A DNA stretch of 64,000 nucleotides, taken from positions 1 through 64,000 of the forward strand of contig JAFUWV010000006.1 in the NCBI GenBank assembly GCA_017477325.1, in the 5' to 3' direction. Below are positions 43,569 to 45,471 of this stretch, piece after piece. A model generated the notes under the pieces. That model was not told the DNA's origin, ran no database searches, and saw only the letters and a list, made by a program, of their open reading frames with translations. Source of the DNA: Paludibacteraceae bacterium. GTDB lineage: Bacteria > Bacteroidota > Bacteroidia > Bacteroidales > Paludibacteraceae. Both the position numbers and the translations under genes were made by a program. The first letter of the stretch is position 1, and each line of letters starts with the position of its first letter.

Positions 43569-44240
43569 TTATTTCTCCACAAGAGAAATGAATTTGTCAA
43601 TATCCTGTGCCTCTGACGATTGAGGATACTTCTCCTTGATCTCGGTGAAAGCCTTCTTTGCAGCTTTCTTGTTGTCAAGACTCATATATGCCACACCTGC
43701 TTTCTTGAGTGCGATAGGAGCGATAACCTCATTGCCTGACTTGGCAGCCTTGAGGAAAGCCTTGGCTGCTTTCTCAGTCTCATCGAGTTGAGCATAAGCG
43801 TCACCGAGTTTCATTGCAGCAGCAGGAGCCACGTTGAGGTCGTCAGCACTGTACTTCTTCAGGTATTTGACAGCTTGCTCGTAGTCACCGGTGTTATAGT
43901 AGCAGATACCTGCATACAGAGCAGCCAGCTTGCCCGGGCGAGTGATGCTGTACTTGTCTGCAATAGCCTCAAAACCGATGCAGTCAGCCTCATCACCATT
44001 GAGTGCGGTCTCGTAATTGTCCTGAGCGAAATAGACCACAGCCTTAGCTATCTCGTCGCTTGCCTCAGCGGATTTGGGTTTAAGATAGTAGTTATTGAAC
44101 ATCATGATGCCCACAATAACAGCCAATATGCCGACAAGGCACCACATAAGAATGTTTTGGTTACGGATAATCCATTGACCTGTAGTAGAAATGACTTCCT
44201 GTACTTCAGTAGCCTCTTCTTTTTTAACTTCTTTTGCCAT
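43569..44240 (-). CDS. Membrane-anchored tetratricopeptide repeat protein (YfgM-like)
   Basis: A 223-residue protein. Residues 1-28 are charged and cytoplasmic; a single transmembrane helix (about 31-52) follows; then TPR units from about 60 to 215 (AALYAGICYYNTGDYEQAVKYLKKY, AAAMKLGDAYAQLDETEKAAKAFLKA, ALKKAGVAYMSLDNKKAAKKAF). This layout is that of YfgM-type proteins, which associate with SecYEG and periplasmic chaperones; that role here is inference. It has its own promoter and probably heads an operon with ribH. Confidence 0.87.
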   Translation of the reverse strand: MAKEVKKEEATEVQEVISTTGQWIIRNQNILMWCLVGILAVIVGIMMFNNYYLKPKSAEASDEIAKAVVYFAQDNYETALNGDEADCIGFEAIADKYSITRPGKLAALYAGICYYNTGDYEQAVKYLKKYSADDLNVAPAAAMKLGDAYAQLDETEKAAKAFLKAAKSGNEVIAPIALKKAGVAYMSLDNKKAAKKAFTEIKEKYPQSSEAQDIDKFISLVEK

Positions 44241-44342
44241 AATATTTAGTTTTATTAGTTTACAATTATTAAGTTTGACAAGTTTGTAAAGCTTGTTTGG
44301 TTTGAAAGTTTATCGTTCCTTCGGATTTGCCCAAATAGCGTG

Positions 44343-44374
44343 CAAAGATACTACTTTATTTTTATATGCTCAAA
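44343..44374 (-). promoter_or_regulatory. Promoter of TPR-ribH operon
   Basis: On the minus strand: TTTG (44371-44374), 20 bp, TATCTTTG (44343-44350). The leader is about 95 nt, with degenerate 9-mer repeats near 44265-44310. Confidence 0.8.
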
Positions 44375-44431
44375 TCTTAGCGGCATTTTTATGGAAAAAG
44401 TTGATAGTTGTACTTATTCTGCTTGCAATTG

Positions 44432-44462
44432 TTGCTTATTCTGCCGGAAAAACCTAACTTTG
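44432..44462 (+). promoter_or_regulatory. Promoter of structured RNA candidate
   Basis: TTG (44432-44434), 20 bp, TAACTTTG (44455-44462). It points into a region with no credible protein gene. Confidence 0.8.
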
Positions 44463-44466
44463 CATT

Positions 44467-44681
44467 GTGGTTAGTAAGCGAACTACCACTATACAGACAT
44501 ACTGGAGGCTTCAAGTCGAGAACCGGAAAACTCAACACACAATTTATCCCGGGGCAATTTGCCGGCCAATGGCGTGCTGCTATCAGGCAACTGATCGGGC
44601 AGATTACAAAAGCCGGTAAAACCTCAAATCCTATTTATTAGGAGTTTTCTCTGAGAAAGTACTTGCAGCCTCCTTTTTTTT
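44467..44681 (+). ncRNA. Structured RNA candidate, 6S-RNA-like rod
   Basis: About 215 nt from a strong promoter to a T8 run (44674-44681). Nested pairings fold it into a rod. P1 is GGAGGCTTCAAG (44504-44515) with CTTGCAGCCTCC (44662-44673), one mismatch. P2 is GAAAACTC (44526-44533) with GAGTTTTC (44642-44649). A large central bubble follows (about 27 and 24 nt). P3 is GCCGGC (44561-44566) with GCCGGT (44612-44617). The tip is ATCAG-GCAA-CTGAT (44582-44595), a GNRA tetraloop. A 5' hairpin lies at 44467-44491. A long rod with a central bubble is the 6S RNA architecture, in which the bubble mimics an open promoter for RNA polymerase; the identification is inference. The T-run after P1 makes the closing stem a terminator too. 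Confidence 0.6.
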
Positions 44682-44709
44682 GTGTTGGTAGGTTGATAGG
44701 TTATATATA

Positions 44710-44747
44710 AACTGTCGGTATTCTACGGGAGCAGGATACCGACAGTT
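44710..44747 (-). terminator. Terminator of the flavin reductase gene
   Basis: AACTGTCGGTAT (44710-44721) pairs perfectly with ATACCGACAGTT (44736-44747). It lies about 30 bases past the stop of the minus-strand gene and is followed by TTATATATAA. Confidence 0.75.
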
Positions 44748-44778
44748 GTATGAAAGATGTATTATTTATGATGTGCTC

Positions 44779-45471
44779 TTATTTAATCAGCACTTTTCCG
44801 CTACCCCATGCTTTGCCGACCTCTTCACCTACCACATGATAGGTATTGTTGGCAGAGTTATATATAATAGGTTGCAGTTTCATTATATCAATAGTGCCGT
44901 CCTCGGTAAGAATCTTCTCGTCCGCACTCCAGTTGACCACCTGACCAATGACTCTTGCTCCCCCGTCTTCGTTCTCCTGAATCTCCACTGCAACGCACTC
45001 CAGCGTCAGAGGGTATTCATTGATAATAGGTGCATTGACATTGGGTGAAGGAGTAACAGTAAATCCTGCATGAGCCACCTTGTCGGGCACTTTGTTAGCA
45101 CTGACAGTACCAAAATAGTCGCTCTCCACCACAGTGTTTTTGTCTGCGAAACTGATTGTGAAAGCCTTGTTAAGACGGATGTTGTCTGTAGTCTTGTGCG
45201 CCGAGAGTTCAAACTGAATCTGATTCATGTCGCACTGACCGCCCCACGCTGCCATCATTACGTCAGGGTTCTTCTGCTCGTCCCATGTAGCAATCATAAT
45301 GCATGGCAACGGAGTAATAACCGGATGTTTGCTGCCGAAGTTCTTGCGTCCTGCAACTTCTGTTATCTGCTGTTTCATATTGTTATTAGTATTAATGTTG
45401 TTTGTGTTCTGCTGTTTGGTGCATCCTGCCATAACTATCAGCAGTGCTGCCGTGTAAAGGAGATGTTTCAT
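44779..45471 (-). CDS. Flavin reductase-like (FMN-binding split barrel) lipoprotein
   Basis: A 230-residue protein. The lipoprotein leader MKHLLYTAALLIVMAGC gives lipidated Cys17, followed by an Asn/Thr-rich linker and an internal Met32 (MKQQITEVAGRKNFG) that begins a complete flavin-reductase-like domain: PLPCIMIATWDEQKNPDVMMAAWGG, DNIRLNKAFTISFADK, EYPLTLECVAVEI and VIGQVVNW. Relatives bind FMN in the cytoplasm. Here a membrane-anchored, extracytoplasmic location is predicted. An FMN reductase gene lies 93 bases upstream on the same strand. Confidence 0.87.
   Translation of the reverse strand: MKHLLYTAALLIVMAGCTKQQNTNNINTNNNMKQQITEVAGRKNFGSKHPVITPLPCIMIATWDEQKNPDVMMAAWGGQCDMNQIQFELSAHKTTDNIRLNKAFTISFADKNTVVESDYFGTVSANKVPDKVAHAGFTVTPSPNVNAPIINEYPLTLECVAVEIQENEDGGARVIGQVVNWSADEKILTEDGTIDIMKLQPIIYNSANNTYHVVGEEVGKAWGSGKVLIK

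Follow-up and report, generated by a model that had tools for sequence, protein, structure and literature searches.

The window, a 64,000-nt stretch of DNA, very probably encodes the 6S RNA of its source organism, a Paludibacteraceae bacterium of the gut Bacteroidales, between positions 44432 and 44681, as judged from family assignment, structure and covariation. A gut lineage that has received little study would thereby gain a 6S RNA, in DNA that carries no annotation for it. The 6S RNA of the window is itself an ordinary member of an already known kind of RNA; the only surprising part appears to be a flip of the gene within the genus. A preliminary description had read the locus as possibly 6S RNA and had named an Rfam comparison and a covariation test as checks, and both came out in its favour: Bacteroidales-1 matches above its curated cut-off with 6S-Flavo co-located below its own, and the proposed helices covary.

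The Rfam scan of the window gave three matches only, two tRNAs and Bacteroidales-1 (RF01693), the latter at 44507..44676 on the forward strand over the full model (1-179) with 63 bits, the cut-off being 60. The region 44300-44850, scanned permissively, returned the same family (E 7.2e-10) and, at the same place, 6S-Flavo (RF01685; E 1.6e-05), whose 43.6 bits do not reach that family's cut-off of 85 bits; the next best match had an E of 1.1. The organism's own assembly, rated 71% complete, holds a single RF01693 copy. The family was found in 47/61 genomes of a genus sample (10 over the cut-off), 178/200 of a family sample (143 over) and 48/198 of an order sample (36 over), the own genome being part of each; RF01685 was found in 7/61 genus genomes, always below its cut-off. 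The canonical 6S profile (RF00013) matched none of 41 genomes (the own genome and 40 relatives) and 5 of 14 controls, 4 of them over the cut-off; by the RF00013 profile there is therefore no rival 6S gene in this group.

The structure line of RF01693 leaves unpaired the closing stem that covaries strongly in our alignment (A1, below). A covariance model built from A1 with this stem included (R1) finds the RNA in 58/61 genus genomes (25/26 of the good ones) versus 47/61 with the Rfam model, a recovery that contains the 25 A1 loci of the genus, whose match is built in. Most of the phylum lies beyond the reach of R1: in the phylum sample it finds 10/198 genomes, the own genome among them, under the strict filters that are applied above 40 genomes and that lose weak matches. 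Its nine hits in other lineages coincide with RF01685 in eight cases (E at most 4e-05, two over the cut-off; L184 has no match), so that Bacteroidales-1 and 6S-Flavo, separate in Rfam, appear to be models of the same RNA.

Table 1. Features of the putative 6S RNA gene in the window.
Feature	Position	Strand	Basis or remark
-33-type TTG element	44432..44434	+	sequence
-7 box TAACTTTG	44455..44462	+	exact fit to TAnnTTTG
Predicted transcript start and 5' leader hairpin	44467..44489	+	fold; start from -7 box spacing
Closing stem P1, 5' arm	44504..44515	+	covariation, duplex test
P2, 5' arm GGAAAACTC	44525..44533	+	covariation count
Central bubble, 5' strand; conserved AACA beside P2	44534..44550	+	conservation
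Apical arm: P3, P4, P5, tip	44551..44625	+	alignment, RNAalifold, covariation, fold
P3	44551-44554/44622-44625	+	GGGG with CCTC
P4	44561-44566/44612-44617	+	6/6 paired, one G-U included
P5	44577-44580/44599-44602	+	apical arm
Tip	44582-44595	+	5 bp closed by GCAA loop
Central bubble, 3' strand AAATCCTATTTATTAG, with small hairpin 44631-44641	44626..44641	+	conservation
P2, 3' arm GAGTTTTCTC	44642..44651	+	alignment, covariation count
Closing stem P1, 3' arm	44662..44673	+	covariation, duplex test
T8 tail	44674..44681	+	sequence

The architecture given in the preliminary description holds up (Table 1). Its nested helices all exist, the closing stem with one mismatch (11/12 paired, T44511 standing opposite C44666) and P2 with 8/8 over 44526-44533/44642-44649, and the long rod with a large central bubble is backed by fold and covariation alike. 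The promoter that it had placed ahead of the RNA is present as a good sequence of the Bacteroidetes type, the closing stem runs into a T8 as it had stated, and its transcript of about 215 nt agrees with the 215 nt (44467-44681) now predicted from the promoter and T8 sequences. Absent from it were the P3 pairing, the hairpin in the 3' bubble strand and the 5' leader hairpin. For the entire transcript the folding energy is -68.6 kcal/mol (z -4.50, 1/200 shuffles equally good), and 44470-44681 has a z of -3.75, with 0/200 shuffles equally good. The apical arm, which contains invariant ATGGCG and GATTACA, varies in length: matches span 168-173 nt in the window, L061, L063, L074, L080 and L081, and 187-206 nt in the remaining loci listed for the genus (30 and the window), the surplus bases lying in this arm. 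At position 44511 the window has T, and the five other sequences of alignment A2 have G. Whether the 3' bubble strand CAAATCCTA copies the -7 box in reverse complement (CAAAnnTA) was also considered; its spacing is off by one base, and nothing is claimed.

Covariation was counted on loci thinned at 85% identity, which reduced 88 (L001-L088) to 65. A1 is a sequence-only alignment of 41 of these, 25 from the genus (window included) and 16 from the family outside it; the remaining 24 come from other parts of the order and were excluded from the count. The consensus holds 39 pairs in 6 helices, with 94.3% of 1583 cells paired versus 79.7% in shuffled alignments and 38.5 to 50.4% for slid versions of the structure, a comparison in which the consensus is favoured over its slid versions by being derived from A1 itself (by RNAalifold) and in which the shuffles ignore relatedness. 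Changes on both sides occur in 26 of the 39 pairs (shuffled mean 20.4), double-change cells number 272 (shuffled mean 87.9), the covariation score is 0.471 (shuffled 0.196), and 0/500 shuffles reach the observed value on any of five measures. Because the gap is large and double changes are many, the RNAalifold bias and relatedness are poor explanations of this result.

In the closing stem, all 10 A1 pairs have changed on both sides, and the duplex of this stem beats shuffled arms (p<=0.05, 200 mononucleotide shuffles) in 86/87 loci, the miss being L066 (p 0.06); L004 stands outside this test since its 3' arm could not be located by motif. P1 and much of the apical arm vary in sequence yet stay paired. 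Conservation (35 invariant columns in the 41 sequences) is focused on the two strands of the bubble, on P2 and on the internal loops of the apical arm: P2 has 99.0% of its cells paired and 5/10 pairs invariant, and in the 3' bubble strand AAA and CCT are invariant and helix 6 is 93.5% paired. Together, conservation and covariation exclude chance.

The transcript ends are predicted from motifs. The sigma-ABfr consensus is given as TTTG near -33 and TAnnTTTG near -7 (Ryan et al., 2020; PMC7366714); in the window, 20 nt separate the TTG from the -7 box. As this box occupies -12 to -5 in one studied member of the phylum, according to PMC9723704, +1 is predicted near 44467. At the other end, P1 and the T8 probably act as an intrinsic terminator, and T5 or longer lies close to the RNA 3' end in 55/58 genus loci. 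A generic sigma-70 and intrinsic-terminator scan of 43800-45300 gave one site each, neither at the RNA and both within chance; such scans miss the two signals because their patterns suit neither a Bacteroidetes-type promoter nor a terminator whose stem runs the length of the RNA. The predicted leader (37 nt) is longer than that of most relatives that retain the -7 box, and carries, ahead of the closing stem, an extra hairpin (-7.9 kcal/mol, z -1.96, 9/200 shuffles equally good), whose counterpart in the nearest relative, L063, is partly N. Both flanking genes lie on the opposite strand: a tetratricopeptide protein gene (tpr) adjoining ribH (lumazine synthase) on one side and a flavin-reductase-like gene on the other. 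Among 80 ribH relatives retained from named records, out of at least 583 confirmed, the best is 76% identical and comes from a reindeer Paludibacteraceae MAG. A perfect 12-bp inverted repeat at 44710-44747, between the RNA and the convergent flavin-reductase gene, is perhaps the transcription end of the latter.

Compared with known systems, the RNA shares with canonical 6S RNA (ssrS in E. coli, bsrA in B. subtilis) the familiar rod, closing stem, central bubble and apical arm; unlike it, the RF00013 profile matches none of the 41 genomes of the group. With Bacteroidales-1 it shares the blocks ACTCA, AATGGCG, GATTACAAA, CTCAAATC and GGAGTTT, the one copy found, the promoter motif and the T tail; it differs in scoring 63 bits where the order reaches up to 184, and in the predicted leader with its own hairpin. 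The 6S-Flavo family differs in having been described from other Bacteroidetes, according to Weinberg et al. (2010; PMC2864571), who class 6S-flavo among the RNAs without a cis-regulatory role. A 6S RNA is not unprecedented in the phylum: Ryan et al. (2020; PMC7366714) report its detection by dRNA-seq in Bacteroides thetaiotaomicron with evidence for two pRNA classes, and cite pRNAs predicted in the phylum by Wehner et al. (2014); in F. psychrophilum a known 6S RNA is expressed, according to PMC9723704. Because our control genome Bacteroides ihuae matches RF01693 and neither RF00013 nor RF01685, we infer that the 6S RNA reported by Ryan et al. (PMC7366714) corresponds to RF01693.

By analogy, transcription, polymerase binding, pRNA synthesis and growth-phase control of the window RNA would follow the known 6S cycle. 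The housekeeping sigma factor would start transcription at about 44467, as the promoter sequence implies, and the transcript, about 215 nt long, would end past the closing stem, in the T8. The RNA would then fold as a single long rod, opened in its middle by a large bubble, a shape that covariation supports. In studied 6S RNAs, RNA polymerase takes the bubble for an open promoter and is sequestered, and pRNA synthesis releases the enzyme. Here too the bubble may pose as an open promoter and hold the RNA polymerase-sigma holoenzyme off DNA promoters. When nucleotides rise, the 5' bubble strand and the 5' arm of P2 (about 44525-44538) would serve the enzyme as template for a short pRNA; the probable pRNA template starts in that strand (44534-44550) and extends into P2. 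This synthesis would open the rod and free the enzyme. The conservation of P2 and of the 3' bubble strand fits such a mechanism.

Several observations count against the 6S identity: RF01693 lies only 3 bits above its cut-off in the window, 51/61 genus genomes are not over it, RF00013 has no match, the leader is long, P1 has its mismatch, and the reach of both models is limited (RF01693 in 48/198 order genomes, R1 in 10/198 phylum genomes). A rival reading is an RNA of conserved structure that only resembles 6S and has another function, as a base-pairing sRNA or by sequestering a protein, and the names given to the family leave room for this: its Rfam label is only "6S-Bacteroidales RNA suggested", and Weinberg et al. 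(2010; PMC2864571) list Bacteroidales-1 as an RNA whose cis-regulation is undecided. We nevertheless consider such a function improbable, given the overlap with 6S-Flavo at eight of nine loci in other lineages, the focus of conservation on bubble strands, P2 and apical internal loops, the presence of the RNA in 178/200 family genomes, and the pRNA evidence in print for the Bacteroides 6S RNA (Ryan et al., 2020; PMC7366714).

It is very improbable that the RNA belongs to a neighbouring gene, as its cis-regulatory leader or its 3' tail. This reading draws on the genus, where the RNA lies behind a same-strand protein gene in 48/58 loci, of the same family in 44; in the window, however, the RNA comes with promoter and terminator motifs of its own and neither neighbour shares its strand, and across loci it is conserved where the neighbours differ, ribH/tpr being adjacent in only 29/88. 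A small protein gene has hardly any chance of being the answer either: a TTG-start frame of 77 aa is open at 44408-44641, but it begins upstream of the predicted transcript start, and the covarying helices and length changes among aligned relatives suit RNA, not codons; on alignment A1 the protein-coding reading was rejected.

With the 6S identity as the preferred reading, the genus stands out by its promoters. The box TAnnTTTG lies within 75 nt upstream of 55/58 loci outside the genus versus 12/30 within it, on a background of 134/3126 windows (4.3%) and of 8/88 (9%) when the same stretches are read on the opposite strand. In an enlarged genus set of 58 loci from 57 genomes (G403 twice; the hits G441:C51 and G417:C32 left out), 14 have the box and 48 follow a same-strand gene, which in 44 belongs to one outer-membrane-protein-like (OMP) family; the gene of L067, the one scanned, matches OMPP1/FadL only below the cut-off. 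Among these 44 OMP-linked loci 40 are without a box within 75 nt and four have one (L060, L064, L196, L210), somewhat above the roughly 1.4 expected from the background of the same genus loci (56/1763 windows, 3.2%) and equal to the opposite-strand rate of 9%. Loci that are not behind the OMP gene have it in 10/14 cases, and one more of them, L065, has it at -80. A missing box need not mean a missing promoter, since 26/28 visible starts of the upstream genes are also without it.

Gene order offers an explanation: the box would be scarce behind the OMP gene because the 6S gene has flipped. Five genus loci have the layout ribH(-) tpr(-) 6S(+) OMP(-), nine have OMP(+) 6S(+) tpr(+) ribH(+), and in another 35, OMP(+) 6S(+), tpr-ribH was not seen within the stretch examined; the window has ribH(-) tpr(-) 6S(+), with the flavin reductase gene replacing OMP. 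As ribH, tpr and OMP retain their mutual direction, only the 6S RNA gene has turned, and in the OMP-linked loci it lies 5-145 nt behind the OMP gene on the same strand. In a tree built from the RNA (57 genus rows and 6 outgroup rows), the OMP-linked label changes 3 times (shuffled mean 17.2) and the box label 6 times; L211, a partial match with a misplaced start, was dropped from the tree and is still counted among the 44 and the 58. A branch of 46 rows, 43 of them OMP-linked, has an SH-aLRT of 91 (not starred) in a tree where 32/59 inner branches are weak, and its other three rows (L082, L084, L085) sit behind a same-strand gene, without the box. Our reading is that a single local inversion came first and that the promoter box was lost after it, and the window's layout looks like the ancestral one.

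The position of the flipped loci behind the OMP gene and a box at about background (4/44) suggest that their 6S RNA is made from an mRNA tail. Put in full, in most sampled species of the genus the 6S RNA may no longer be an independent gene: an inversion of the RNA gene only, between the OMP gene and tpr-ribH, would have placed it 5-145 nt behind the OMP stop codon (behind other genes in a few), the sigma-A -7 box would have decayed, and the upstream mRNA would now supply the 6S RNA, by cleavage or by read-through. The ancestral antiparallel layout, driven by a promoter, would persist in the window's species and those closest to it. We hold this tentatively, at slightly short of an even chance, on what gene order and motifs can tell. 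Alternatively, a non-standard promoter inside the upstream gene might drive the flipped 6S RNA. The genus is a testable case of a local inversion after which a 6S gene seems to have lost the promoter box that it usually has; if the mRNA-tail reading is true, the supply of a global transcription regulator would have passed to a neighbouring protein gene and a global polymerase brake would be tied to the expression of a particular operon. The open literature that we searched yielded no report of a 6S RNA cotranscribed with an upstream gene, or of a 6S RNA of Paludibacter. Examples of the flipped arrangement are L067, L069, L083, L087, L187, L198 and L212, and contrasting ones are L061, L065, L070, L074, L086 and the window.
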